Shown: positions 2,077 through 63,827 of the stretch, in pieces
How the letters are laid out: the number at the start of each line of letters is the position of its first letter
Position numbering within the stretch: the first letter of the stretch is position 1
The notes under the pieces: model-generated
What the model saw: only the letters and a program-made list of their open reading frames with translations
What the model was told of the DNA's origin: nothing
Databases searched by the model: none
Assembly (NCBI RefSeq): GCF_002994745.2
Contig: NC_037090.1
Coordinates: 14,186,001 to 14,250,000, forward strand
Direction: 5' to 3'
Length of the DNA stretch: 64,000 nucleotides
Origin: Rosa chinensis
Taxonomy: Eukaryota > Streptophyta > Magnoliopsida > Rosales > Rosaceae
Program-made: the position numbers and the translations under genes

Positions 2077-2123
2077 TGCATGCAAAGTGAAAGTTGATCC
2101 AAAGCATAAGCACACGATCCCAT

Positions 2124-2963
2124 ATGATGGAACTAGACACCACCACCACAACCATCATGGGCGCTCTGGCCACGCTCTCACCTCCCCAACTCTCCGATCT
2201 CACTCACACCCTCCTCTCCCTCTCCCACCACCACCGCCGCCGCATCTCCTCCCTCCTCTCCTCTCCCATCCTCTTTGCCCTCACCATCCGCCGCCTCAAC
2301 TCCCTCTCCCTCCACCACAAGACCCTCCTCATCTCCCGCCACGTCATCTCCTCCCTCCACCACCTCGCCCTCCACTTCCAGCCCGCCGCCAAAGCCCCAC
2401 CGCCACGCGTCAAGCTGAGAGACCTCGACGCTGTCCTCCTCCTCCTCTTGCTCTGCGAGGCCCACCAGCACGACCCTGACGCCCTCCAAGCCCCCACCGC
2501 GAAATGGCGGGAATTACTCGGCAAGTTCTACTGTGACACCATGTTAACGGTTTCCGGCATCGGGGCCCAAAACGCGTCGGTTTTGGTTTCGTACGTTGAA
2601 ATGCTGACGAGGTGTTTGAGGTTCGTTAGTGCGATGGAGAGTTGTAGTTTTGGCGGGAAGGCTGGAAGGGAAGTGCCGGCGGCGAAAGCGGTGGTGGTGG
2701 CGCTGCCGTCGGTAGAGGTGAGAAGTGGTGGCGGCGGGCCCAAGGAGTGCGTGATATGTAAGGAGGAGATGGCGGAGAGCAGAGATGTGTGCGAGATGCC
2801 GTGCCGGCATTTGTTTCATTGGGTGTGTATTTTGCGGTGGCTGAGCAAGAGGAACACGTGTCCCTGCTGCCGCTTTGCGCTTCCGACGGATGATGTGTAC
2901 GGTGAGATCCAGCGGCTGTGGAACGTTTTGGATAATGTGGCTTCGGAGAAGGGTTTAGTTTAA
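2124..2963 (+). CDS. SGR9: RING-H2 E3 ubiquitin ligase, SGR9-like (amyloplast)
   Basis: An intronless frame encodes 279 aa. The N-terminal half (ALATLSPPQLSDLTHTLLSL, then HHHRRR and a KLRDLDAV motif) matches what I recall of Arabidopsis SHOOT GRAVITROPISM 9. The C-terminus is a complete RING-H2 finger with zinc ligands at about C209, C212, C227, H229, H232, C235, C246 and C249, followed by FALPTDDVYGEIQRLW. In Arabidopsis, SGR9 is a RING E3 ligase on amyloplasts that modulates their interaction with F-actin in gravity-sensing endodermal cells; that role here is inferred from similarity. The frame stays open upstream to 2094, but I chose the ATG pair at 2124/2127 because the homologous protein begins near there. 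GC content is much higher in the first 600 bp than in the flanks, driven by His-, Leu- and Pro-rich codons. Confidence 0.88.
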   Translation: MMELDTTTTTIMGALATLSPPQLSDLTHTLLSLSHHHRRRISSLLSSPILFALTIRRLNSLSLHHKTLLISRHVISSLHHLALHFQPAAKAPPPRVKLRDLDAVLLLLLLCEAHQHDPDALQAPTAKWRELLGKFYCDTMLTVSGIGAQNASVLVSYVEMLTRCLRFVSAMESCSFGGKAGREVPAAKAVVVALPSVEVRSGGGGPKECVICKEEMAESRDVCEMPCRHLFHWVCILRWLSKRNTCPCCRFALPTDDVYGEIQRLWNVLDNVASEKGLV

Positions 2964-16436: not shown

Positions 16437-18254
16437 ATGGTTAAACCCTGTTGGAGGCCATCTGTAGAGGAAGATGGTGCTCGACGGGGTGGTGAAGCTA
16501 GCGGACGTGTTGAAGGGTTGTTGTGGTACAAGGACCTGGGCTACCATGCTTGGGGGCAATTTTCAATGGCTGTGATCCAAGCCAATAGTACTTTGGAGGA
16601 TCAAAGCCAGCTCGAATCCGGGTTTCTGAGTGCAAACAGATTCGGTCCTCAGGGGACCTTCGTTGGAGTTTACGATGGACATGGAGGCCCCGAGGCTTCA
16701 AGATATGTGAACGACAATCTTTTCAGGAATCTCCAGAGTATGGTTCTTCTTTATCAAACTGTTTCGTTAGTTTAATGCTATAATTCTAATAAAGCTTAGG
16801 TCCTGTTCAGAACTTTGCATACAGTTTAGCAAAATATGTTTTCAAATTGTCTAGTTGAATGTATAATCTTAGGCTTGCAATCTCACAGCACATCTCATTG
16901 ATATTTATGCTGATTGATATTTGTCTATTGACAGGAATTGCATCAGAGCATCGAAGCATATCGGAAAATGTTATTCGAAAGGCGTTTTTGGCCACGGAAG
17001 AAAACTTCCTCTCCTTTGTGAGGAAGCAATGGCTAAGTAAGCCAGAGATTGCTTCTGCAGGAACATGTTGTCTGGTGGGAGTAGTGTGTAATGGACTTCT
17101 ATACACGGCAAATGTTGGGGACTCAAGGCTGGTTCTAGGGAAAGTAGAAAGGGCCACTAGGGAAGTCATAGCTATTCAGTTGTCTTCAGAGCACAATGCA
17201 AGTATGGAATCAGTAAGACACGAACTTAAGACTACTCATCCCCATGATCCACAGATTGTGGTGTTGAGACACAAAGTTTGGCGCGTCAAAGGCCTCATAC
17301 AGGTACTGGCATGGTGCCATGGTCTGCATGCTTCTGCAAATTATATTTCATTGAACATGGTTGCATGTTTTGATCTAGCACTTGTTCTATTAACTCAAAA
17401 CACTTCAAAATACTTTTATAACACTTAAAGATACGCTCTATCCGGCAAACAGGCCCCTTTGGTATCTCAAGCTTGTGCAATTCTTGAAAAATTCTATAGG
17501 AACTGCTACTTTACTAAAGCTTTGCTTATAAGTCGAAAACTTATTGTGGTTTTATGACTTAAAAGGATCTGAAAAATGTGAATTTGTTATACTGTGGCAG
17601 ATAAGGGTCTTCAGAGTATGAATAAGTTGTGGATTTTCCTGCCAGATAATAAAGTAGAAGTGGCAATATAAGTATGTTTTTTCTAAACTAATATCAAATC
17701 TCTTCTGCAGGTTTCAAGATCCATTGGTGATGCATATCTAAAGAATGCAGAGTTCAACAGAGAACCTCTACTACCCAAGTTTAGGTTACCAGATTCTGAA
17801 CCTTTCGTCAAGCCAATTCTAAGTCCAGATCCATCAATATCGGTACTCAAACTCCGACCAGAAGATCAGTTTCTCATATTTGCTACTGATGGTCTGTGGG
17901 AGCATCTTAGCAACCAGGAGGCTGTCGACATTGTCAACAATAACCCACGTAAAGTAAGAATCAGAAAGTCTAAAACTGACTTGCTGCATAGTTGGACCAT
18001 TAAAGGAGACGCTAAGATTAATGAGCCTTTTCACACTTGTTCTGCAGGGAATTGCCAGGAAGCTTATTGAAGTTGCACTACAAGCAGCAGCAAAGAAAAG
18101 GGAAGTGAGGTACTCAGACTTGAAAAGAATCGAGCGAGGAGTGAGACGACATTTTCACGACGACATCAGTGTAGTGGTAGTGTTTCTAGATCACAATCAG
18201 TTGAAAAATGGAACCTCTCGCAAATCTAATATTTCAATAACACCCAACTTCTAG
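16437..18254 (+). CDS. Protein phosphatase 2C, clade D-like, 4 exons
   Basis: Exons 16437-16737, 16935-17302, 17711-17953 and 18048-18254 join in frame to 372 aa. The protein starts [14 protein letters not shown] and contains the PP2C signature VGVYDGHGG (metal-binding Asp80/Gly81), [12 protein letters not shown] (about 158-169), [17 protein letters not shown] (Asp283) and the final [14 protein letters not shown] metal-binding pair. The [12 protein letters not shown] opening and the NPRKGIARKL and [19 protein letters not shown] blocks are characteristic of plant clade D PP2Cs. In Arabidopsis these dephosphorylate plasma-membrane H+-ATPase and are inhibited by SAUR proteins; that role here is inference. 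An upstream in-frame ATG exists at 16413, but the family begins at MVKPCW. The 5' leader upstream may contain an intron. All four exons look intact. Confidence 0.92.
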
Positions 18255-33984: not shown

Positions 33985-35368
33985 TCAGCTTTGTAAGGAC
34001 TTGTGATGGGTTTTGAGTATCTTGACCTGCTGCTCTTTCTGTTCCACGCCATGGTAATCTTCAATCGAAAGTAGACTCTCTTCATATTGAATCATGTGAA
34101 CGTGATCTTGCTCAATTATATACCTCCCATTTGCCTCTCCTTTATCATCAAACCTCATCAATATGGTGTTGTAGACACCCCAAACCTTGATAATTATACT
34201 AAGGGAAAATTTCGCAAACAGTACACCAAGTAAAGTTCTAAGGGCATAATGAACATTTTAGTGTCAAAAATCGACGTCGTGTACTGATAGTGGGTCGAGT
34301 TTCAGATTTCGTGTACTGAAATGTTTGTTTTGAAACTTTGTGCATAAGAATTATTAGTGGCCTTTACTTGGTGTACTATTTGCGAAATTTTCCCTTATAC
34401 TATGTTCCCCAATAAATGGTGTTAGGTATGGCGCCCAGGGCCCAATCGGATTGGAGAACTTTAAGTAAAAGAGGTCAGTCCAGGAGTCACTCACATCATC
34501 CTCTCTCATGACCCATAATGTAATGCTGCCATAATATGATATTCGAGATACGTACAGACAGGCATCCTCCGAGAGACACCCCAAGATGGCTGGTGGTATA
34601 ATTACAAACATCATCGAAATTAGGCAGTCGCATACTCCGGAACTCTTCCTTAACCAGATCAAAAGCAACTATTCCGCCTTTTCTGTATATCCAATGAAGT
34701 GCATGATTTGAAACAGTCCCCTGACCATCGAATAATTAATCGTATGATTGAGGTCGGGGTTCAATCCTTTTCCAAGCGTGAGCTTTTACTGAGAACATCT
34801 TGGCCTCAACCTCACTAAAGTGCTGATCATGACGGTGGTACACATTTTCGGAGGCTACGAAAACTTTGTAGTTGTCAGTAGCCGGCAGATAGCCAACACC
34901 ATAGCAGGGTGGGAACCAGAAATCAGGATTTTTTGCGGTAAAACCAGGGTCTGGTAGTTCCTTCAGCATTCCGGTTGATGGGTTACAGATGTAAAATTTA
35001 TCGGGAAATTTATCACATCCTGTTATAATAAATAGCAATCCATTGCAGGACCCCAGTAGGCTGACAAAACAGCCCTCTTTCTGGCAACGGAAATTCAGAC
35101 TTCTAGACGAACAGGTGTCCCCAAATGACGGCTTTTCCAAGTCTAGAAATTCGATACGAGGGGTGGCGTGTGACGAGAGGAGGAGGAGTCTCTGAGTTAG
35201 GGATTTCTGCTCACAAGCTGCTTTGTATTGAGATTTGGCGAATATGGGGTCGGACAATATAATGAAACGGAAGCGTTTCGAAACGCAAGTGAATCGGATC
35301 AAGGATTTTACGGGAAGCCAAGAGAGGATAGTCACTATAATATCTTCGGGTAGGTCTGTTTCCGCCAT
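33985..35368 (-). pseudogene. F-box protein gene copy 1, disrupted by nonsense change and MITE
   Basis: The minus-strand frame starts at 35368 with an F-box (LPEDIIVTILSWLPVKSLIR), followed by an F-box-associated region with FYICNPSTGMLKELPDPGF and GVGYLPATDNYKVFVAS, as in the plant FBA/CPR1-like family. F-box proteins recruit substrates to SCF ubiquitin ligases through SKP1 binding. After 210 codons, TAA at 34736-34738 replaces the CAA seen in copy 2 (QSYD*LFDGQG versus QSYDQLFDGQG). Further downstream a 192-bp MULE MITE (34203-34394) is inserted into the coding sequence. The equivalent of the normal stop is at 33985. The N-terminal 210 residues would still be produced if transcribed, so a truncated protein cannot be excluded. 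Confidence 0.85.
34194..34403. mobile_element. 192-bp MULE-type MITE in F-box copy 1
   Basis: The element 34203-34394 has near-perfect TIRs opening GGGAAAATTTCGCAAA, with ACACCAAGTAAAG further in. The 9-bp TSD TTATACTA(A/T) flanks it at 34194-34202 and 34395-34403. F-box copy 2 at about 52553-52561 has the single unoccupied TTATACTAT, proving the boundaries. Confidence 0.9.
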
Positions 35369-35803
35369 TGCACTATGGATATGGAGACGAGATCGACGAA
35401 GATGTAGCTAGGGTTTTCATATATTTGAGAGAAGAGGGAGGACACGGAACGCTGCCGTCTGGGTCATTAAGATTGTGATGCTAGGTAATCAGTAGCTAGC
35501 TTGGATAACAAGTATGCAAGTGTGTAACAAGTTTGTTTCTTTCCGTTTAAATTTATTTTGATCCTCTCTTCTCGTCTTCTTTCCTAGTTCTTCACAATCT
35601 CAAATTCTTATTTGAGGCTTCTAACCTTGAGACACAAACAAGGCATATTCATCAACCTTACTAGAGTTTAATTCCATGGTCAGATTCATGTTTGCTTTGG
35701 TTAAGAGATTCAAAATCGAGTGATCAATGATACGTACATCACAGGACTAACTGAGCATAAAATAAACAAATAATTCTCAAATGCATGAGTGAACACACTG
35801 GCA
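35369..35803. other. Upstream flank of F-box copy 1
   Basis: Promoter-side spacer matching 53482-53902 in unit 2. No gene or defined element is seen. Confidence 0.5.
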
Positions 35804-40319: not shown

Positions 40320-41558
40320 GCACAACCATTCCTCTATGTTTCTGCTCTTTCTCCATATTGAATCATGCCGATACTATCAAACACAACACATTAACAATAA
40401 AAGAATGAAACACATTGATCCATTATAAAGTGTAATTGACAAGATGGTCAACAAGAGTTTCATTTCGAAAACCGATTTCACGACAAATATAACTATAGTT
40501 TCACCAACACAAAAAATCTCTCATTTGATTTATACCAATAAAAAAAAATTGAATACATTAAAGTTTCCTAATAAAATCACAATTTGATTTACTTCTTTTT
40601 TTTTTAATTTTTTATTTAAATTTCAATGTTTGTCGATCTATTTCAATCCATGTTAAAAGATTAATAAATTAACAACTGTGAGCAATGAATAAGAGAAAAA
40701 AAAAATTTCTCGTCTTTTACCCTGCGTTTAGATGAGAAAATTCAAAATTATAAAATCCGTAGGAATTTATAAATAACGGAATTTTTAACTCCATCAATTG
40801 CAATTTCTATTGTTTGGTTGTATCTATTTAAGATTTTAAATGTATAATAAATTAAGAAAGTTTAAAACAAATAAAAAAATAAAATAGAAAAAAGTCTTGT
40901 TTTGGAAATAAAAATTGAATACTACAAATGAATTCATAAATGACACCTATTTTGGCGGAAATTGAAGTGGGGAATTTAAATAATGAATTCCTTCGTTTTT
41001 TTTTTTCCACAGAGAAAATAAATATTCCAATCTAATAATGCCAAACGAGGGAATTGGCTTGTAGGAATTATGAAAGGGTGCGGCTATTGACATCCTACTA
41101 TTTTCTTAGTTCACCCTACAAACATTTAAATTATTGAAAGATTATATTACCCAAGTGCAAAATAACTAATAAGTACATTAATTTTTGAAAATCCAAATAT
41201 GTAAGAAAAAATAAATATATATAAGTAATTAATTAAATACAAAGACTACTTAATTTCTCATTGGATAACATTAATCTTTATCTTCTCCACCCAAATTTGA
41301 ATTTATTACTATTTTTTTTTTGTTGTTGCCTCCTCATCGTTCATTCGTTATTCAATTCACAAAACCATTACCTTTAACTTCATCAAAATCTTTGCAATAT
41401 TCTTTGTGAACACCGAAAGTAAAAATTTAAAACACGAAGAAGAAAAAAAATCAATCTCTTCTTCATTGATCATAGTTGTAAATTTACTAATCTTTCTACA
41501 TAGATTGAAATAGAGAACATTGAAATTGAAAGAAAAAATTAAAAAAATAGGAGTAAAT

Positions 41559-41721
41559 TGTTATAAAGTAGAGAGAATATGGAGAGAGAATAGTAGGGAG
41601 GAAGTAGAAGTATTTCATTCAGTCTCATTAGCCTCCTTTATATAGAGGTAGGGTTTACATCAAAGTACACAACTAATGAGTATTTACGTGGACAGCCATA
41701 TAGATAATAATATTTACAACA
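41559..41721 (-). repeat. 3' LTR of the minus-strand element
   Basis: 163 bp, ending in TG/CA. On the minus strand it starts TGTTGTAAATATT and contains the TATA-like TCTATATAAAGGAGG. Apart from the 13-bp insert ATGGAGAGAGAAT it equals the partner LTR. Confidence 0.9.
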
Positions 41722-43014
41722 CTCCCCCTTGGATGTCCACCAATGAATGATGATATTGGACGCGCTTATTGTTGCCTCGTTAAAAACCTTGCCAGGTAAC
41801 AAAAACCCAGTGGGACAAAAATAACCCTGGTCGAAGGACAAAAAGAGCACAACGCGCATATGTCCTAGGTAGCATGCTTCTGGATGCTCCCCCTGATGAG
41901 AATCTCCCTCTGATCGTTGCAAGCCTTAATTATGTGTGCGATAAGCTACATGTACTATGTATAGTGGTTTGATGTGTCTATCACTGATGTGAGACCACGT
42001 GTGCTTTGCATATAGGGGCTCATCACAAATTTTCATACCTGAAAAGGTTAAGCAATACCAACAAAGCTAGCTGATTGTCAATAAGCCTTACCTCATATGA
42101 TAAGGTTAGAAATAATCTCATATGCTCAAATTCATACACAAAGTAATAGCTAAACAATATAAAGAAATTGACACATTTAACTTTGTATAGTTTAAAACAT
42201 TGAAAAAATCATCATGGCATACCTAGCCATACACATCAATATCTTTGTGTATTGATATGTCTCATATAAGCTTCTTCAAGAGCTCTAAATAATTCATAAC
42301 TTTGCGAAAGTTAGAATATGTTGCAACATTATATTCATAATTCGAATTCAATAGTAGTCTCTTCATAGTACTCATTAAGGCAATTTAGATCTCGTTGACT
42401 AGAACGAAATGAGTACATATGAGCTAGCTTTAGACTCTTTGATTCCATAAGTGAGCTTTAGGCTCTTTCAACCTTTCATGAACTTGAATTATTCATGTAT
42501 TTGAATCCCTTAAGGATTTGATAAGCAATACGCTTATTATGACACTTTTCTTTTGAGATTATGCTTTTAACAATGTATCTTTAAGATCTTCATAATATAC
42601 GATGACAACGTGCCATAAATCTCTCGTCAATATAACAGCTATATGTAACACTGTACTTATAGAAAATTGTCATTCGTATAAGGGAAGATATTCATAATCT
42701 CATGTCTCGATAAATAGACATTGTGTCATAGTGATTTATCTTCACTTTTGATAAATACCTTTTTGTACCATGTAGGGTTAAAGGTCCAAGAATTCCATCA
42801 CGTTTCAAATATCCAATTTCATTGGAATTGCCTCTTTCCAATTTGGCCAATAATATACTTTGTCGACATTCATAATGAAACGTGGTATAGCGTCAATACA
42901 AGCCTTAATGATTTTTGGTAGCTTCCAAATGTAAATTATCATCGATGATCATTAATCATAGATCCCACACATTCTTATATGCATGCATTAACTATAATAA
43001 GCTTATTAATATTG

Positions 43015-44780
43015 GGTACCCATGCCACTTCTGGGGCATACATTGTCACTTCCAGAACAATCATCTCTCATAGATGAATTATGTAGAATGTGGATCTTTT
43101 TACGTATAATCTCATGTCGAGCACTATAGGGCTTGTATGATCTTCCCTTTTTTGGAGCTTAAAACTTTAGACCTGGTGGATATAATCCACACAAATTCAC
43201 GCCATTCTTTTAATAACATTAGTTTTCTCTCCCCCTAATGGCGGGGATACTTTCTTATTTTGACCACTTGTAAACATGTTTTTGATAATATCACTTCCTT
43301 AGAGTGAAGAAATTTATTGGTTGGTGGCGAACCCATACCAAGTTTAGGTCAAAAACATTTAGTTTATGAGCATAAACTATACTGATAAATAGTCTCACCA
43401 AGACATCAGCGATTTTACAAGGGACCAACATTGGTCTATGTCATTCTTTTCAAAGGACCATATCATTTGGACCAACATGTCTGCTACCATGCATAGTTGG
43501 TCTAGATTGTCTATGCAATCATGTTATGCTTTAAGGATTTTAATCCAAGTAAATTCTTTTGCAAGGAATATCATTATCACTTTAGGTACAAAGCTCAAAA
43601 TGAGACATGGTCGAAAAGTCTCACACCAATTCATATTGTTCTTCAGGAACAATATTTCTCCCCCTTATGGCAGGAGGATTGTCTCATTAAAGTGACAACT
43701 CGCAAATATGTGGTAAAGAAACAATTTGATTGTGAGTAAGGTTAGCAGTCATCAAAACTTGTAAGTGATTCCATGCAACATGGCCAACAAAGATGACATA
43801 ACTGGTCAAGCCAAAATAGTGTATTTGGTTCAATGAACTTCTGGTTCATGACATTATATGTGTAATCGAAGCTTCAGGTTCGAATATTTTTCCTATGAAC
43901 TGCAAGTTCTAAGATTTCGTAATTTGAACTTCGGGTTCAAATAAATTTGGTGCTCGAAACTTCAGGCTCGAGGTGACTAAAGTGAATCTTCAAGTTCACT
44001 TTTAACTAATTTATATTTTATACTCAAAGCTTCGGGTTTGAGTTTTATTGTTAGAACTTCAAGTTCTGCTATGAAATTTTGAACTTCTGGTTCAAAATTA
44101 TTACACTCAAAATTCATATGGTCGAAGTATAGGACTGCTGGTCCGTATGAGTAAAAAAAATTAATTTAAAAGATAAGTACTGTAATGTAAGTACATAACA
44201 AAATAGGAAACTTGCAGGGAAACAGATAGATAATGGAATATATTTTACAGTTGAAACTTCTAGTTCCTTGAATGAAGAAAATACACAGAACTTCTGGTCT
44301 GCTTAACTTCACAAATATGATAATTTTTTTTTCTCTCCTCTAATCACACAAGAACATAATTTTATCTTGTGGAGAACGTAGCTTCTAGCTTTACATTCAA
44401 AATTGAACTCCAAATTCACATTGTCGTGCGGAGGAGGGAACCCCAATACCCAAACATTTTTGAGGAACTTCCGGCCCTCTTATAATTATTGGGGATAAAA
44501 AAAAATATGTGAGTTCATATACTCATTGTATAGCTCTGAGGATCTTCTGGCCCTCATAATTGCATAAATTCTGAAGAGCTTCATGTCACAATTTTCCAAT
44601 TTACATTTCATGATCCTAGAGGAACTTCAGGTCCCCATATGATCAGGGATCAAGTAACATGCGATTTTGATCATTGTATAATTCTGAGGAACTTCTGTCC
44701 CTTCATTTCACAATTTGGAATATGTAACTCTTGAGGAACTTCAGGCCCTCTGTAATCGAATCAAGAGACTTCAGGTCTCG
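43015..44780. repeat. Array of stem-covarying hairpins, cluster 1
   Basis: About 20 short inverted repeats share the loop core CTTC(A/G/T)(G/A)G while stems differ from copy to copy yet stay complementary. Examples are ATATTGTTC/GAACAATAT (43633-43655), ATTTTGAAC/GTTCAAAAT (44076-44098), ACTCAAA/TTTGAGT (44022-44043), GTGAA/TTCAC (43982-43999), TCGAA/TTCGA (43866-43883), ATGCC/GGCAT (about 43022) and GAGAC/GTCTC (about 44764). Spacing is irregular, mostly 25-70 bp. Some members around 44250-44720 pair imperfectly (GAGG with CCCTC). The array lies inside the LTR element on the far side of the gag remnant. Confidence 0.85.
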
Positions 44781-45456
44781 ATCTATTTTGATTACAAAAT
44801 TCACAAGTAGATATAGGTGTGAGTTCACCATATCAATTTTCCAGATTGAAAGAAAGAAGAAGGTGAATCAAAAGGTCAAAATAGATAAATACATACCTGA
44901 AGCTCTTTCAATTAAAAGACTAATATATGCCCAGATCATATATATGCATAGAATTGTGTAACTAGATAAGTTTTTCCCTTAAAAATTATACAAACTGGAG
45001 CATGCCAAAATGTTATGTCCTGCAAGACAATAATTAATCATAGTAATGACGTCCTCAGGACTAACAGTGCTATAAAGCCAATACTTTATATATTGAATAA
45101 TACAAATCCATTAATTTGCTGTAAATCAAATTGAAAAACATCACCCAGTGGCCTTTCGTTATGAAAAATTTGGCATATAAAGAAAGGAAACATATAGGCA
45201 ATTATCAAGGTTTAGCAAAAGAAGCATGCAGCAGATGAATTCAAACTATAAGATTAAGAAGCAACAGAGTAGTCAAAGTAAATAAATGGAGACCACCCAT
45301 TCCATCACAAGTCCCAAACCAAGACCACCATGAATCTTTAACAAACCGATCAAGGCCAATTATTATTGGTAAATTTGAAAAATGCGCATCGATATGAAAA
45401 CAGATTCAAAAAAGAAACGATGCAAGTGGTATGTGCAATAGAAATACGCGATCATG

Positions 45457-45708
45457 TCAAGAACAAAATTGGGAGATTAACTTCCACATCGCACAGTGAA
45501 TGAAGATATTAAACTCATAGATCAAAGTTAAGGTCAAAAGCAACAAGGCTGCACCAAAAACTTTAAGATCATCATGGAGTCTAAAAAAAAATAGATCAAG
45601 GGCCCAAGACAGGTAGTTCTTGCCAGAGATGTCAAGGGTGACAAAATCCAATTTTGCCAAATTCGTCATCTTCCTGCCACAATGAAGATGAGGTATGTTA
45701 GGATCCAT
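45457..45708 (-). pseudogene. Copia-type gag N-terminal fragment
   Basis: The minus-strand frame has TNLAKLDFVTLDISGKNYLSW, the conserved start of plant Copia gag (UBN2-like) proteins, then diverges after LDLFFFRLHDDLKVFGAA. It ends after 83 codons, far short of a full gag. It lies downstream of the 5' LTR and a hairpin cluster, in the sense direction of the element. Confidence 0.7.
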
Positions 45709-45713
45709 GTATA

Positions 45714-45942
45714 GTGTTAGAACTACAGGTTCTTAACAAATAAGTAATTAATATCGAAACTTCAGGTTCGAAAAAAAATGAACATTGGATCGCAATTATA
45801 TACACGAAGCTTCAGGTTCGTGGTCTTATTATTAGAACTTCAGGTTCTAAAATTCCGTATTTTTGAACTTCGGGTTCAAACGGATATGTACTCGAAACTT
45901 CTTGCTCGAGTAGCAGTAGTGAAACTTCAAGTTCACTTGTAT
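45714..45942. repeat. Array of stem-covarying hairpins, cluster 2
   Basis: Seven hairpins in 230 bp: AGAAC/GTTCT, TCGAA/TTCGA, CACGAA/TTCGTG, TTAGAAC/GTTCTAA, TTTGAAC/GTTCAAA, TACTCGA/TCGAGTA and AGTGAA/TTCACT. All have loops built on ACTTCAGG or close variants. In element sense this cluster sits between the 5' LTR and the gag fragment, in the leader. Confidence 0.85.
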
Positions 45943-46062
45943 TATGAATATTAAGTATGTTTAATTGATAAAACATATAAGATAATTTTAATTAAATAAA
46001 TATCAGATATGCTATAAGGAATGATACAGCAAAAATATATCCATTATGTTAACAACATATAC

Positions 46063-46107
<45 letters not shown>

Positions 46108-46584
46108 GTATACAGGAACTTGTGATTAGATAATCATATGAAACCATATATATATATATTAAAGTGCGATTATAGAATCATAGCTAGTAAACTATATATA
46201 TATGCTTGCCAATAGTTTGCAACCAACTAGAGTACGATAAAGGAACATGTTTGTGAAGCAGGATATATTAAACTATATATATATATAGAATTGCAGAAGC
46301 ACAAAAAAAATAAAACATTCCATAAACCCTACTGAAGCAACTGCAATAAGGCGCCGCCCACATTTTGTTTAATATGTTGCCGTATATAAAAAAAAAATAA
46401 GTCAAAAAATAAACAAAACGTTGATATGATGCCGTATATCTCCATAAACCCTAATATGCATAATTGATATAGATTATAAATAAACTCATAGATCATGAGT
46501 TATAGTTAAGAGCAACAACGTTGCACTATAAACTTGTAGATCATCATAGAGTTTTAAGAAAAATAGCAGAGCGTGCTGATAACG

Positions 46585-46734
46585 TGTTATAAAGTAGAGA
46601 GAATAGTAGGGAGGAAGTAGAAGTATTTCATTCAGTCTCATTAGCCTCCTTTATATAGAGGTAGGGTTTACATCAAAGTACACAACTAATGAGTATTTAC
46701 GTGGACAGCCATATAGATAATAATATTTACAACA
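46585..46734 (-). repeat. 5' LTR of the minus-strand element
   Basis: 150 bp, identical to the other LTR apart from the 13-bp indel. Just inside it lies the putative primer-binding site. Confidence 0.9.
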
Positions 46735-47544
46735 TAAATCATATTATGATTTTTTTAGGAAACTTTAATAAATTTTAAATTTTTTTATGAGTATAAATTA
46801 AATGAGAGATTTTCTCTAAAAATATTTATTTTTTAATTGGATATGTCATATAAGGATATTATTGGAAAGAGAAATGGGTTAAATAAGTAAATTTAATAAT
46901 TAAAATTAAAATTTAGGGTGTAATGAGCAAGTAGGGTGAACTAAGAAAATTGTAGGGTGGCAATAGCCGCACCCATTATGAAATCCTCACTTTCAATTAA
47001 ATTCCATCATTTTTTCTTTCATCCAAACACACTTTTTACTTGCAGCAATGGAAAGCAAAGATTTTGATGAAACACTAATGATTTTGTGAATTGAATAATG
47101 AATAAGATATTTTGTTTTCATATTTTAAATTTTTAGTTGCAGTAAGGGATAGCAAAGATTTTGATAACACTAATGATTTTGTGAATTGAATAATGAATAA
47201 GAGATTTTTTTTTCCTTGAAATTTAATAACAAATTAACTATGAGGAGGCAACAAAAAGACAAAAATAGTAATAACTTCATGAGAAATTCTTAGGTAGGGC
47301 AAACGTATCAGCCACGTGATACGCCCGGTCAGTTATCGAATGAGAAATTAAATAGTCTTTGTATTTAATTAATTGAGTATGTATTTAGTTTTCCTTATAA
47401 ATTTAGATTTAAAAAAATTAATTTAATTATTAGTCATTTTATACTTGAGTAAAATAGTCTTGCAATAATTCAAATGATATGTTATCACTATACAAGTAGT
47501 CGAACACCTGCATGTTCTTCATGAAGACCTAATTTTGTTGATAA

Positions 47545-52330: not shown

Positions 52331-53481
52331 TCAGCTTTTTAAGGACGTGTGATGGGTTTTGAGTCTCTTGACCTGCTGCTCTTTCTGTTCGACGCCATGG
52401 TAATCTTCAATCCAAAGTAGACTCTCTTCGTATTGAATTATGTTAACGTGATCGTGCTCAATTATATACCTGCCATTTGCCTCTCCTTTATCATCAAACC
52501 TCATCAATATGGTGTTGTAGACACCCGTACCGTTGACACCCCAAACCTTGATAATTATACTATTTTCCCCAATAAATGGTGTCAGGTATGGCGACCAGGG
52601 CTCAATCGGATTGGAGAACTTGAAGTAAAAGAGTTCAGTCCAGGAGTCACTCACATCATACTCTCTCATGACCCATAAATTAATGCTATCATAATTTGAT
52701 ATTAGAGATACAGACAGGCATCCTCCAAGACACACCCCAAGATGGCTGATGGTATAATTACTAACATCATCGAAATTAGGCAGTCGCATGCTCCGGAACT
52801 CCTCCTTAATCAGATCAAAAGCAACTATCTCGTCTTTTCTGTATATCCAATGAAGTGCATGATTTGAAACAGTCCCCTGACCATCGAATAATTGATCGTA
52901 TGATTGAGGTCGGGGTTCAATCCTTTTCCAAACGTGATCTCTTACTGAGAACATCTTGGCCTCAACCTCACGAAAGTCCTGATCAGGACGGAGGTACACA
53001 TTTTGGGAGGCTACGAAAACTTTGTAGTTGTCAGTAGCAGGCAGATAGCCAAGACCATAGTAGAGGGAGAACCAGAAATCACTGTAAAACCAGGGTCTGG
53101 TAGTTCCTTCAACATTCCAGTTGATGGGTTACAGATGTAAAATTTATCGGGAAATTTATCAAATCCTGTTAAAATGAATAGCAATCCACTGCAGGACCCC
53201 AGTAGCCTGACATAACCGCCCTCTTTCTGGCAACGGAAATTCAGACTTCTAGACGAACAGGTGTCCCCAAATGACGGCGTTTCCAAGTCTAGAAATTCGA
53301 TACGAGAGGTGGCGTGTGACGAGAGGAGGAGGAGTCTGTGAGTTAGGGATTTCTGCTCACAAGCTGCTTTGTATTGAGATTTGGCGAATATGGGAACGCA
53401 GGTGAATCGGATCAAGGATTTCACGGGAAGCCAAGAGAGGATAGTCACTATAATATCTTCGGGTAGGTCTGTTTCCGCCAT
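52331..53481 (-). pseudogene. F-box protein gene copy 2, frameshifted
   Basis: Same gene as at 33985-35368, with MAETDLPEDIIVTILSWLPV at the start (53481). Relative to copy 1 it has lost 33 bp in frame within the F-box itself, removing SKRFRFIILSD. It has also lost 10 bp near 53080, which shifts the frame after GFTV and leads to a stop at 53011. The remaining C-terminal half is open from 52999 to the stop at 52331 and includes IYRKDEIVAFDLIKEEFRSM and YEESLLWIEDYHGVEQKEQQ. It lacks the nonsense codon and the MITE of copy 1. The two copies were thus inactivated independently. Confidence 0.85.
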
Positions 53482-55791
53482 TGCACTATGGATATGGAGA
53501 CGAGATCGACGAAGATGTAGCTAGGGTTATTCATATATTTGAGAGAAGAGGGAGGACACGGAACGCATGTGATCCTAGGTAATCAGTAGCTTGGCTAACA
53601 CGCATGTTAAGTGTGTGTAAGAAGTTTCGTTCTTTTTCTTTCTTTCAGTTTAAATTTATGTTGACCCTTTCTTCTCCTCTTCTTCCCTATTTCTTCACAA
53701 TCTTAAATTCTTATTTGAGGCTTCCAACCTTGACACACAAACGAGGCATATTCATCAACCTTACTAGAATTTAATTCCATGGTCAGATTCATGTTTGCTT
53801 TGGTGAAGAGATTCAAAATCGAGTGATCAATGATACATAACAGGGCTAACTGAGCATAAAATAAACAAATAATTCTTGAATGCATGAGCGAACACACTGG
53901 CAGTTAGAATGCACATAGAGGGTTGTTTCTGCTCTTTCTTCATATTGAATCGTGCCAATACTATCAAACACAACACATTAACAATAAAAGAACGAAACAC
54001 ATTGATCCATCATAAAGTGTAAATGACAAGATGGTCAACAAGAGTTTCATTTCGAAAACCGACTTCACCACAAATATAACTATAGTTTCTTCAACACATA
54101 AATTTCTTATAGCATAATACAGAAATTCCGACAAAGACAATCAAACAAGATAAATATAACAGTCAAAACTTAAAAAACAAACAACGAATATATACATCAA
54201 ACCAGTTGCTACCATTACAAATATAGCTAGCTTTCAATTAAAACTGGTCCATACCACAGCTATAACAAAGAAACCTCCCATAAAGCTTGTTCCTGCAATC
54301 ATACATCCAAAAGCCCCTACAAAATCAAAGAAAGAACACTTTTGTGAAAGCCAATGACTCAATGATCAACCAGGATGAATGGTCTTTCCCTTCTGCTTGC
54401 TCCTAATACCATGTATACTGAGATATATATGTATAAAGGATATATATATAAACAATGTGCATAGATAAATATAGCCAAAAGAGGATATCAGCTCTGTTAA
54501 GCATATAAAGAGTTGACAATTTTTGTTTCTGTGTGGTGTTTCTGAGATTATGCGCAAATTGGCAGCACAGAGTGATGATATAAAGAGAGGCTCATACCAC
54601 CCTTGGAGACTCCAAGTTCATTAATATCAAAAATAGTACCCTTTCGACAGGATGAATTATGAAATAGAATGCTATTTCAGAAGCACTAAATGAAAACATT
54701 TCCCAGACAGTTGGGTCATTAAAAAAAAGATGGTCCAACCAACTTTGCATTAACAGAAACTCTTTACTAATATGAGACGTGTTAATGGAGAGAAAGTTGA
54801 GATTAAACTATCAAGCCAAGTACAGAGTTAACATATCTTTGACTTAGCATTAACAGAAACTCTTTGCGCAAAATGAGATGTGTTAAGGCAGAGCAAATTG
54901 AGATTAAACTATCAAGCCAAGTACAGGGTTAAAATATCTTTGAGTTACAGATTCAGAAGTCAGAACTCACATGCCCAGTTTGAGTTCTCAAAAGCATCTA
55001 AGCCTAGAAACTCAGTATTTCATTTGAATATTCAGTATTACAATAGCAATTATACAAACAAGGACTAATGCATTTGTAATTCACACCAATTACATATTCC
55101 ATTTTTCTCTGTAATGATGTAAAGTCAAACAACTCCAGACCCATTGCTTGCACACATATATCTAATAGAGGGTTATCAATTTACTCAAAATCACAAATCC
55201 TCTATGGGTTTACAGCAATTTAAAGCACTTCAGTTAAGTTCCTTGGTATAAAGTAGAGTTGATATGGATTTGTGGCCACTTGAAGTGATAAAATAAAACT
55301 TACAAGAGGACGGTTTACTAAAGAGTAGATTTCATGATGACTCAAATTAATCGCTAATATGAACTGACAATTCCAATGTCTGTTGCCTACATCATCAAAA
55401 ATTGATACTTGTATAAGATCACTCCTCTCAGCTGAGTGTCCTGACAGGCATCCTATTGCTACATGAAACCAACAAGTAAAACAGAACTCAAGAACAAAAA
55501 GGAAAGAAAAGGTTTACAACCTCTTTAGCAATAGTATAAAAAAGAAAGGTAACAGAACCCTCACTTTTCGAATCCACACACTGACACACATATCTTAAAA
55601 CCAAGGGAAATGGTAACTTTGAATTCTATGCTGACCAAAAGAGATACTTTATATACATATAGTTAGGAAGACGCATAAACCAGACCCTTGGTTTAATCAC
55701 ATAAGATTGACTGCCTACATCAATGAAGAGGATAAGCAGAGTCAAAATGAGAGTAAGTAACCAGCACTGTTATGCAAAGAGCAATCGAGGA
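53482..55791. other. Intergenic, no gene recognised
   Basis: The first 600 bp complete duplication unit 2. The rest up to 55650 has only short frames and a 100-bp tandem duplication. From about 55650 the sequence is the downstream flank of F-box copy 3 and matches 58270-58457. Confidence 0.5.
54747..54947. repeat. 100-bp tandem duplication
   Basis: Units 54747-54846 and 54847-54947 both start GCATTAACAGAAACTCTTT and contain GAGATTAAACTATCAAGCCA. They differ at roughly a dozen positions. Confidence 0.88.
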
Positions 55792-56876
55792 CTAATCATC
55801 AATCCGAAGTAGACTTTCTTGATATTCAATCATGTAAATCCAATCGTCCTCAAACCCAATCATATAGATGCTACAGTTGTCTTTTTTTTTTTTGAAGAAT
55901 CTTTACCAGTCCTTTCCAGTCTTCGTCAACAGATATCTCAGCAACCATACTAGTTTCCGTAACCAAGATACGATTGTAACTCCATTGCTCCTTAGGGGGG
56001 TCCGAAAGCTTCAAGTTAAAGAGCTTAGTCCACGAGTCACGCTCTCATGACCCACACATCAATTGAGTCAGCGGAAGCCCGCAGATAACGAGCTAGAGAC
56101 AGGCATCCTCCAGTAGAAACTCCGAGATGGATGTCATGTTTGCGACCTCGTTCGTTATGGAAATTGGGCGGCAGCATTTTCCTCAACTTGTGCTCATCAT
56201 CCTCTTGTGCCAAATCGAAAGCCACAATTTCATGCTCTTGATCATTAAGCCAATGAAGTGCCTCTTTCAAAAGAGTCCCCTGACCAGCAATTGAACCATC
56301 GAAATCGACCTCAAGTGTTTTCCAACCGTCAGCTCTGGACGAGAAAATGGCGGCCTCAACCTTGTCATCAACAGTAAAGCCAGCGGAGGCTACGACAACT
56401 TTATAGTCGTCGGTGGCCCGCAGATAGCCGACACCATAAACGAAGAGCTCATTTTCTTTTGGGGAAAAACCCGGGTCAGGTAATTTCTTGAAGAAACCAG
56501 TTGATGGGTTCCAGATATTAAATATTTTCTCGTTAAAAGCTAGAAATACAATACCATTGCAAGAGCCCAGAGGCAAGACTTCACCCGCTGGTGGGCGGAG
56601 AGGAAGTTTGAGCTTCCTAACAGAGGAACGGTCTCCAAACGACGGCGTCTCCAAGTCAAGGGATTCGACTCGAGGGGCGGTGGTGGAGCAGAGGAGTCTA
56701 CAAGCTAGGGTTTTGCGCTCACAAGCTGCTTGAAATTGGGACTTGGCGAATTTTGGGTCTGAGAGAATGATGAAATGGAAACGTTTGGAAACGCAGGTGA
56801 ACCGGAGTAACGATTTCACGGGAAGCCAGGAGAGGATAAGCACTATAATCTCTTCCGGTAGGTTTGCTTCCTCCAT
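55792..56876 (-). pseudogene. F-box protein gene copy 3, C-terminus frameshifted
   Basis: The frame from 56876 encodes MEEANLPEEIIVLILSWLPV and continues intact for 279 codons through VFLAFNEKIFNIWNPSTGFF, LRATDDYKVVVAS and SADSIDVWVMRA. A small deletion relative to copies 1 and 2 (where WVMREYDVSDSW follows) then shifts the frame into a stop at 56037. The remaining C-terminal homology (FNLKLSDPPKEQW, then YMIEYQESLLRIDD) continues to 55792 with at least one more shift in an A-run near 55880. The first 279 residues include the full F-box and most of the associated domain, so a shortened functional protein is possible. It is more distant from copies 1 and 2 than they are from each other. Confidence 0.8.
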
Positions 56877-57018
56877 TGCACTCTCACTAGGGAACAGAAG
56901 ACGAAACGATGAAGTAGGGTTTAAGAGCTAATATAGGGAGCAGTGACCAGTGACAGGACCCAATGACTGGGGGCAGGGTTTGCAGGTGGGTTCTGTAGTT
57001 CGTATTCAGTATTCACTG

Positions 57019-62671: not shown

Positions 62672-63827
62672 TTGTACTACATGAAAATGACACATGCTGG
62701 TGACCTTCATGCAAGTGAAGTACACCATATTCAGAAGGATACTTCACCAGGAAAGGAGAGAGAAAATATATGGTTGTGGCACCAGAGATTGGGACATCCA
62801 TCATTTGGTTACATGAGGTGTTTGCTTCCTACCTTGTTCAAAACATGCAAGGAGTCTGATTTCCAATGTGAGACATGCATCCAAGGAAAGAGCCGTTGTG
62901 CTAGCTACTCCTTCTGGTATGCAGTATTTTCTGTTATTTGTAGATGATTGTACAAGAATGTGTTGGGTTCACTTGTTGAAGCATAAAAGTGAAGTTTGTT
63001 CTGTGTTTCAAATCTTCCATACTATGATCCAAACCCAGTTCCAGACTCCCATCAAAGTCTTCCGCACAGATAATGGTGGTGAATATGTGAACCATGCCCT
63101 CCATCATTACCTAAACAACCATGGCATTATCCATCATACCACATGTCCCCAAACTCCTCAACAAAATGGTGTGACAGAGCAAAAAAACCAACATATCCTC
63201 CAAGTTGCCCGCTCCACGTTAATCGGAGCCTACATGCCTGAGTGTTTATGGGGTGATGCCATCCTTAGCACCGTTTATCTCCTAAATCGCCCACCTACAC
63301 AAGCTCTTAAAGAACCAAATGAGGATGCACACATACGTCCAAAAACACCACTTGAAGCTCTTGGCCAGTTCTTTACCTTACCACCACTCCATACCCTCCC
63401 ACCCAAGATCTTTGGTTGTGTGGCTTATAGACACATTCCATGTAGTCAGAGAACCAAGTTGGATGCTTGTGCTGAAAGGTATGTTTTTGTGGGATATGGT
63501 TCTACCCAGAAAGGATATAAGTGCTACAATCCCTCTACTCGAAAGTTATATGTTACCATGGATGTGACATTCTATGAGCAACAACTTTTCTTTGCCCCGA
63601 AGACTTCTCTTCAGGGGGAGAGCACATCTAGAGAAGTGCAGTCTTCATCAATATTGGAAGTACCAGAAATTGTTGTGGAAGAAAGAATTGTGGTACAAGA
63701 AAGAAATCAAATGGATTTAGAAGCACCAACAACAGGAATTGATGATCAAACTCAGTCAGTCTTGCCAAATTCAACTGAAGACCCCCCTACTCCTAAGTCC
63801 TACCACATCGGTCCCTATTTCTCATGA
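62672..63827 (+). pseudogene. Copia pre-integrase and integrase, frameshifted
   Basis: The first frame (62672-62947) has the zinc-binding pre-integrase motif WHQRLGHPSFGYM...CETCIQGKSR. About 62900-62940 the homology jumps frame and skips residues normally found before TPSGMQYFLLFVDDCTRMCW. The integrase core then continues to 63827 with catalytic Asp in FVDDCTR, Asp in FRTDNGGEY and Glu in QQNGVTEQKN, followed by IFGCVAYRHIP and KGYKCYNPSTRKLYVTMDV. A stop at 63825-63827 precedes the reverse transcriptase, which would lie beyond the window; Asp/Glu-rich linker sequence continues in another frame to the end. Confidence 0.85.

Follow-up and report, generated by a model that had tools for sequence, protein, structure and literature searches.

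We analysed a 64,000-nucleotide stretch of the Rosa chinensis genome (NCBI RefSeq assembly GCF_002994745.2, contig NC_037090.1, positions 14,186,001 to 14,250,000 of the forward strand), hereafter the window, in which a non-autonomous long terminal repeat (LTR) retrotransposon contains an array of small hairpins whose stems differ from copy to copy around a nearly constant loop. The element (Table 1) has direct LTRs that start with TG and end with CA (TGTTG...TAACA in the sense direction) and is framed by a target-site duplication, the combination by which LTR retrotransposons are recognised. A polypurine tract (PPT), AAGGGGGAG, lies beside the left LTR and a site resembling a primer-binding site (PBS) beside the right one, and together with the LTRs these place the transcript on the minus strand. 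The LTR pair differs solely by one 13-bp indel near the sense 3' end of the LTR and the TAAAT duplication is intact, which indicates a recent insertion; an earlier model-made reading of the letters alone (the sequence-only reading) had likewise called the element young.

On the plus strand the loop appears as the word CTTCN(A/G/T)G, which occurs 29 times in the element and 48 times on the plus strand of the remaining window, while the minus strand of the whole window has it 51 times, two of them in the element. With the transcript on the minus strand, the loop in the sense RNA reads C(C/T, rarely A)NGAAG, carried on stems of about 4–9 bp with at most one additional nucleotide on the 3' side of the loop. 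Stems with at least four Watson-Crick (WC) pairs, counted under a rule that tolerates G.U or A.C interruptions, flank 25 of the 29 loop-word sites, the four without such a stem being 45670, 44579, 44382, and 44257. Under a strict definition (at least four consecutive WC pairs beside the loop), 18 of the 29 qualify. Hairpins with an altered loop were also observed at 45719-45733, ~ 43904, and ~ 44690, the last as a weak match (E 7.4) to the covariance model R2 described below.

The hairpins form two clusters, B in the leader and A in a second copy of it, and cluster A contains the tandem sub-copies A2 (44125-44011) and A1 (44017-43832), which are homologous to cluster B. Five sites toward the 3' end (43641, 43049, 43028, 42274, and 41877) have the same loop word with arms unlike the GAA/TTC type of the leader. 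The hairpin at 43641 and the second of two adjacent hairpins at 43022-43061 have the 5' arm ATTGTT in common, and 43049 and 43641 may be related. The sequence-only reading had placed about thirty hairpins between 43015 and 45942, in two clusters of which one lay in the leader. Its count holds up, with 27 of the 29 loop words inside that interval and 23 of these 27 on stems of at least four WC pairs, as does the leader cluster, and the arms it quoted as CACGAA/TTCGTG, TTAGAAC/GTTCTAA, and GAGAC/GTCTC are found in the sequence. Its loop word is real too, with the corrections that the RNA loop is the minus-strand form and that the words at 41877 and 42274 lie outside the interval, toward the 3' LTR; the words at 43028 and 43049 stand apart from both clusters.

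Arm pairing, chance controls, and conservation between duplicates

When the element was shuffled 1000 times with its dinucleotide counts kept exactly, strict hairpins averaged 0.02 and never exceeded one, compared with 18 observed, and the loop word itself occurred 2.16 times on average with a maximum of 8, compared with 29 observed. Such a shuffle had been set beforehand by the sequence-only reading as a way to refute its structural claim, and the claim survived. For the 3' part (41559-43800), strict stems were found at four of five words, and the shuffles gave a mean of 0.018 and a maximum of 2.

We then exchanged the arms between sites. Over all 29 sites, arms matched their own partners with a mean of 3.93 consecutive WC pairs, compared with 1.39 for swapped partners (z 11.4), and none of 20,000 permutations reached the observed fit. 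The same procedure gave z 0.9 at the 48 plus-strand sites outside the element and z -0.1 at the 51 minus-strand sites. The loop register (zero or one extra nucleotide) was picked for maximal pairing, and the permutation granted swapped arms equal freedom. Left arms fit their own right arms and not those of other copies, so the likeness among the hairpins does not come just from the copying of units. Compensatory variation of the arms around a fixed loop, as described in the sequence-only reading, is thereby borne out.

The sites were also aligned by loop length, with site 44625 placed after a first alignment in the eight-nucleotide-loop group, and not in the seven-nucleotide-loop group, because it fits its paralogues there. 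In the eight-nucleotide-loop alignment (19 sites), the five inner pairs were formed in 96.8% of 95 cells and all seven pairs in 82.7% of 133 cells, and in the seven-nucleotide-loop alignment (10 sites) 78.6% of 70 cells paired, these counts being mildly biased in that each site stands in its best-pairing loop register. In the former, 39 cells were changed on both sides, with double changes in each of the five pairs, and pairing fell to 38-55% when the partner was slid by 1-3 columns. None of 500 shuffles of this alignment reached the observed number of paired cells, double-change cells, or covariation score, and one reached the number of pair types; the count of double-changed pairs, which is saturated in this alignment, was reached by 121 of 500. 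For the seven-nucleotide-loop alignment, no shuffle in 500 reached the cells paired or the covariation score, and 2 to 4 in 500 reached the other three measures.

Between the leader duplicates, loops were identical at 26/28 (B-A1), 18/21 (B-A2), and 12/14 (A1-A2) positions, or 86-93%, and arms at 37/39, 25/29, and 18/20 positions (86-95%), compared with 44/77, 27/40, and 19/33 for the spacers (57-68%). Columns of differing class between copies were kept apart as mixed (identical at 21/28, 13/19, 16/17, and 15/18, a fourth comparison, the GAGG block, being taken up below), and the classes were derived from 28 of the 29 sites, leaving out 45670, a stemless word in the gag-like stretch. Compensated changes were observed at individual hairpins. 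Relative to 45810, the hairpin at 43872 has A-U replaced by U-A at pair 5, and that at 44030 has G-C replaced by A-U at pair 3; if aligned ungapped, 44030 also has U-A for A-U at pair 5, a register-dependent change given the alignment gap in its 5' arm. The preservation of loops and arms above spacers in the leader duplicates argues for selection and not repeat expansion. That hairpins outlast their spacers is not expected from mutation or copying alone; in the GAGG block this is true of the loops and hardly of the arms. Simple tandem expansion, which the sequence-only reading had also doubted, is therefore a poor explanation, and duplication of larger units did contribute. We are confident that the hairpins are real, selected structures.

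To describe the strand on which pairing is kept, pairs were scored in the sense orientation at stem positions 1-5. The 145 pairs of all 29 sites comprise 122 WC, 15 G.U, 2 A.C, and 6 other combinations, and swapped partners at the same positions give 47.9% WC, 12.9% G.U, and 6.3% A.C. Under the stem rule that treats G.U and A.C alike, the interruptions in the sense stems are eight G.U and no A.C, an excess of G.U with p 0.004 against an even split and p 0.03 when the 65% G.U share of swapped partners is taken as the expectation. Because the interruptions are G.U and never A.C, the sense RNA is probably the selected molecule, a conclusion that this asymmetry supports and does not prove.

Related hairpins, coding capacity, and placement of the element

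A covariance model (R1) made from the 19 eight-nucleotide-loop sites was searched unfiltered against both strands of the 64 kb. The top 23 matches, with E values up to 0.37, all lie on the minus strand of the element, and the best match elsewhere has E 0.38; 18 of the 23 belong to the training set of 19, while the other five are seven-nucleotide-loop hairpins. A second model (R2), made from 13 of these sites, all of them leader sites, ranks its 13 training sites and four seven-nucleotide-loop hairpins ahead of every outside match, the best of which has E 0.47.

Outside the window, none of the 127 pattern-matched loci listed from viral and prokaryote contigs carries a varied-arm array, and the most distinct arms on one strand of any of them is 2, compared with 10 in 14 hairpins of the element under the same rule. 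In prokaryote contigs, the hairpin-pair pattern matched at least 117 loci, with no array among the matches listed, and a 21-mer from the 3' region had no match. Paired hairpin words matched eight viral contigs, with at most one stem of 5 per strand, and a PBS-side 17-mer matched one viral contig that has no array (a few chance matches are expected by estimate). The single viral contig matching the 3'-region 21-mer was set aside as a chance hit, since repeats and hairpins are absent there. Plasmids, queried with 45700-46734 only, gave no match. One text match to a 13-nucleotide hairpin word was found in the literature, in an unrelated paper on a human kinase gene. A retrotransposon hairpin array of this kind was not found in the open-access literature, a search with most subscription papers and repeat databases outside its scope, and this agrees with the statement of the sequence-only reading that it knew of no such feature in plant retrotransposons.

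No Pfam family was found above cut-off in any of the element's 16 minus-strand open reading frames (ORFs) that are 50 aa or longer, a check with plus-strand ORFs and shorter remnants outside its scope. No pol was recognised among them, where the Ty1/copia superfamily has a gag-pol with integrase ahead of reverse transcriptase. The ORF of the gag region had no match in a protein collection, and its protein gave four pattern matches and no relatives among viral contigs. We take the minus-strand stretch 45690-45600 to be a gag-like start, and it is on this assumption only that leader cluster B would lie before gag. The putative copia-type placement of the element rests on this presumed start and on an inverted repeat around the terminal PPT, whose 10-nucleotide arms (41731-41740 and 41688-41697) are complementary at 9 of 10 positions. 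The PBS-like CGTTATCAGCACG might match an inner segment of a different tRNA. Judged by its repeats, the element is internally rearranged; in addition to the duplicated leader segment, a repeat unit at 43156-43279 and 43592-43711 (67% identity) holds two PPT-like GGGGGAG words. This word occurs four times on the minus strand of the element, at the terminal PPT and at distances of 0.17, 1.5, and 1.9 kb from the 3' LTR.

Inverted repeats around the terminal PPT are known in Sireviruses and in almost half of classic copia elements (PMC2829016; papers cited here by PMC number are represented by parts of their text). The element resembles Sireviruses in this repeat and possibly in having several PPT-like copies upstream of the 3' LTR, and differs in that Sirevirus repeats, located in the LTR or linker, are built on arms with a CGG-CCG core, and that the Sirevirus PBS is TATCAGAGC where the element has TATCAGCACG (PMC2829016). 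Neither the PBS nor palindromic CGG-CCG LTR boxes, then, place it among Sireviruses; in its array the arms vary and the loop is constant, and its LTRs are without the array loop word. Retrozymes carry a hammerhead ribozyme (PMC4918200), and assignment to them was rejected because no hammerhead is among the eight Rfam matches (E up to 1) in 41000-47500. Known Rfam families were rejected for the same interval, the matches being weak AT-repeat or small nucleolar RNA hits below gathering scores.

A second, different copia-type fragment lies at 62817-63827 (+), with Pfam matches to an integrase core and an SH3-like domain; its integrase gave three pattern matches and no relatives among viral contigs. 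The remaining window holds clustered F-box genes or fragments at 34736-35407, 52331-53520, and 56037-56927 on the minus strand (F-box, FBA_1, and KIB1-4 Pfam matches), a RING finger gene at 2091-2963 (+), a PP2C phosphatase fragment at 16859-17428 (+), and two-copy tandem repeats at 47033-47214 (~ 95 bp unit) and 54742-54947 (~ 101 bp unit).

Table 1. Features of the hairpin-bearing element, in window coordinates
Feature	Position	Strand	Basis or remark
LTR retrotransposon, whole, non-autonomous	41559..46734	minus	LTR pair, TAAAT at both ends, placement of PBS-like site and PPT
5' LTR (sense), 150 bp	46585..46734	minus	Sequence comparison with the other LTR
3' LTR (sense), 163 bp	41559..41721	minus	Sequence comparison with the other LTR
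Target-site duplication TAAAT	46735..46739 (right copy); 41554-41558 (left copy)
PBS-like site, sense CGTTATCAGCACG	46572..46584	minus	By position only; adjoins 5' LTR
Terminal PPT AAGGGGGAG	41722..41730	minus	Sequence; adjoins 3' LTR
PPT-like GGGGGAG	41887-41893	minus	Overlaps loop-word hairpin 41871..41888 by 2 nucleotides
PPT-like GGGGGAG	43229-43235	minus	Upstream of terminal PPT
PPT-like GGGGGAG	43658-43664	minus	2 nucleotides from hairpin 43633-43655
Leader segment present twice	46481..46566	minus	81% identity to 45510-45594
Presumed gag-like N-terminus MTNLAKLDFVTLDISGKNYLSWALDL	45600..45690	minus	ORF with no match in the searches made
Hairpin cluster B, in leader	45719..45938	minus	Loop-word hairpins 45925, 45898, 45868, 45838, 45810, 45760; altered-loop hairpin 45719
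Hairpin cluster A, second leader copy	43633..44779	minus	18 loop words, 15 with at least four WC pairs; weak: 44579, 44382, 44257
Two adjacent hairpins apart from the clusters	43022..43061	minus	Arms ATGCC/GGCAT and ATTGTT/GACAAT; loop word
Isolated hairpin AGCT/AGCT	42269..42284	minus	Loop word, four WC pairs
Isolated hairpin AGCAT/ATGCT	41871..41888	minus	Loop word; 2-nucleotide overlap with upstream PPT-like tract

Possible functions of the array

A constant loop, variable stems, many copies, and no recognised genes point to a cis-acting RNA address that is read by a protein. The explanation that we prefer, with a probability of roughly 0.45, is that the array consists of multi-copy Gag-recognition (packaging) signals that serve a non-autonomous copia-type element in trans. 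Transcription would start from the 5' LTR, and the genomic RNA would display about 25 short stem-loops with one common loop. An RNA-binding protein would recognise this loop, which the stem would merely hold out, so that stem sequence would be free to drift while pairing is kept. Most likely, an autonomous copia-type relative would supply this protein in the form of its Gag (nucleocapsid zinc-knuckle), which may bind many loops cooperatively and so package the RNA into the particles of that relative, with the duplicated leader array raising avidity. Encapsidation and reverse transcription in trans are suggested by the fact that an element in which no coding capacity was recognised inserted recently. 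Of the functions that the sequence-only reading had offered, packaging or trans-recognition is thus the one retained, by inference.

The element shows the pattern expected of a dispersed packaging-signal array, numerous stem-loops that have a loop motif in common and differ in their stems. Dispersed packaging signals are known from the RNA of satellite tobacco necrosis virus 1 (STNV-1), with up to 30 AXXA stem-loops (PMC3593212), a number to set beside the 25 stemmed sites of the element, and from bacteriophage MS2 (PMC6281560), and hepatitis B virus has loop-motif packaging signals (PMC8677749) with the loop RGAG (PMC7612645). All three resemble the element in having several to many short stem-loops with a common loop motif along one RNA; they are viral and their coat-protein binding is known, whereas the element is an LTR retrotransposon with its sites concentrated in two arrays, known from sequence alone. 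For Gag of mouse mammary tumour virus, binding needs single-stranded purines (PMC8096270).

Among retrotransposons, the RNA of BARE2 is packaged in the particles of BARE1 (barley, Ty1/copia), a likeness in that a non-autonomous copia-type RNA enters the particles of a relative and keeps conserved dimerisation and packaging signals; a multi-hairpin array is not described for either in the available part of that source (PMC3735527). Ty1 is a parallel as a copia-type element whose structured leader acts in cis in packaging; this leader has one pseudoknot and two kissing hairpins, in contrast to the tens of one-loop copies found here (PMC5454406). The Conserved Hairpin Site of GalEa, a fungal copia lineage, also lies downstream of the 5' LTR, but it is a single hairpin with a conserved stem and a less conserved loop, the reverse of the element (PMC5445492). 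More speculative, and in our estimate doubtful, is the existence of a plant retrotransposon lineage with a repeated loop-coded Gag address, in which tens of interchangeable one-loop hairpins would set loading by copy number and non-autonomous parasites would win by multiplying the address. The element has the leader array twice, with stray copies toward the PPT.

Several observations weigh against packaging. The protein contact is one that we infer, and the partner Gag is a candidate only. To our knowledge, the packaging signals of other retroelements are few and do not come in tens of copies. Those of Ty1 are likewise few (PMC5454406). By our own reading, the G.U asymmetry represents about five independent events among the eight, with a composition-corrected p of 0.03. 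Folding z scores for sense and antisense were -2.39 and -3.24, -4.84 and -5.33, and -0.40 and -2.39 in three stretches; folding of the minus-strand transcript, which the sequence-only reading had proposed, was carried out and rejected as a strand discriminator because the antisense equals or surpasses the sense in folding. The four inner pairs had a mean probability of 0.69 in sense and 0.53 in antisense (p 0.067; 26 of the 29 sites, leaving out 45670, 44579, and 44382 as stemless). In the GAGG block, arms (13/20 identical) differ little from spacers (46/85), with loops at 12/14. Of the 10 seven-nucleotide-loop sites, R1 places five above its best outside match and three below, with two unlisted, and R2 (E up to 10) misses the 3'-side sites 43641, 43049, 43028, 42274, and 41877 because their arms differ. 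Finally, no relative of the element came from our queries of prokaryote, plasmid, and virus collections.

The main rival, which we consider unlikely, is that the hairpins, acting in the leader, control translation, RNA stability, or nuclear export, perhaps through a host RNA-binding protein. It would suit the position of cluster B upstream of the presumed gag-like start, and a fixed loop on a variable stem would be equally typical of regulatory-protein sites. However, no gene to regulate was recognised in the element, yet its arrays are duplicated and conserved, and the sites at 41877, 42274, 43028, and 43049 lie nearer the 3' end, away from any leader.

Improbable, to a clearly greater degree, is a bias at the DNA level, in which quasi-palindrome template switching during reverse transcription would recopy the arms with no selection and the loops would be alike via duplication. 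Larger-unit duplications do exist, the arms are DNA palindromes, and such a process would accommodate both the folding of the antisense and the similar identity of arms and spacers in the GAGG block. It does not account for loops and arms being kept above spacers in all three leader comparisons, nor for the eight G.U and zero A.C interruptions, where a strand-symmetric process predicts equal numbers, and the loop word returns in 3'-end hairpins whose arms differ from those of the leader. Templated DNA hairpin growth, another suggestion of the sequence-only reading, is disfavoured by the first two of these points.

We give still less weight to the pairing of GAAG loops with CUUC stretches, or of loops with one another, for dimerisation or strand transfer. 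The sense strand of the LTR does carry ACTTCTACTTCC, and a kissing-loop model has been put forward for Ty1 dimerisation (PMC5454406), but the complementarity is only 4-5 nucleotides, which is frequent by chance, and loop positions two and three vary. Dimerisation via the loops, also raised earlier, is not favoured because the loop word, as read from the sequence, is not self-complementary.

Least probable of all is that the array offers palindromic DNA sites to a transcription factor or other regulator, a role that has been proposed for the LTR boxes of Sireviruses, or that it is made of heat-shock elements. GAAnnTTC is half of a heat-shock element, the full element being three or more alternating nGAAn units. 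It occurs at eight places in 43000-45950, all eight at loop words (seven with stems of at least four WC pairs and the weak site 44257), but a pattern search found no three-unit element in the array or the LTRs, and a heat-shock-element array was rejected. Repeated motifs of Sireviruses, such as their LTR boxes, are palindromic as well (PMC2829016), whereas here the sites are internal with none in the LTRs, and the loop is constant and the arms are not, the reverse of a palindromic protein site.

How RNA is chosen for packaging is poorly known for plant LTR retrotransposons and for non-coding parasites, and as of 2013 fairly little was known of the packaged RNA of elements other than BARE (PMC3735527). 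If the packaging explanation is true, the array would amount to a packaging code distributed over copies within an LTR retrotransposon, of a kind that we did not find described in the open-access literature. Its countable set of one-loop hairpins would provide a directly testable recognition element together with a copy-number prediction. If the function is not packaging, the array would still be a strongly constrained RNA feature, and may expose an RNA-protein contact that a non-coding element must keep.

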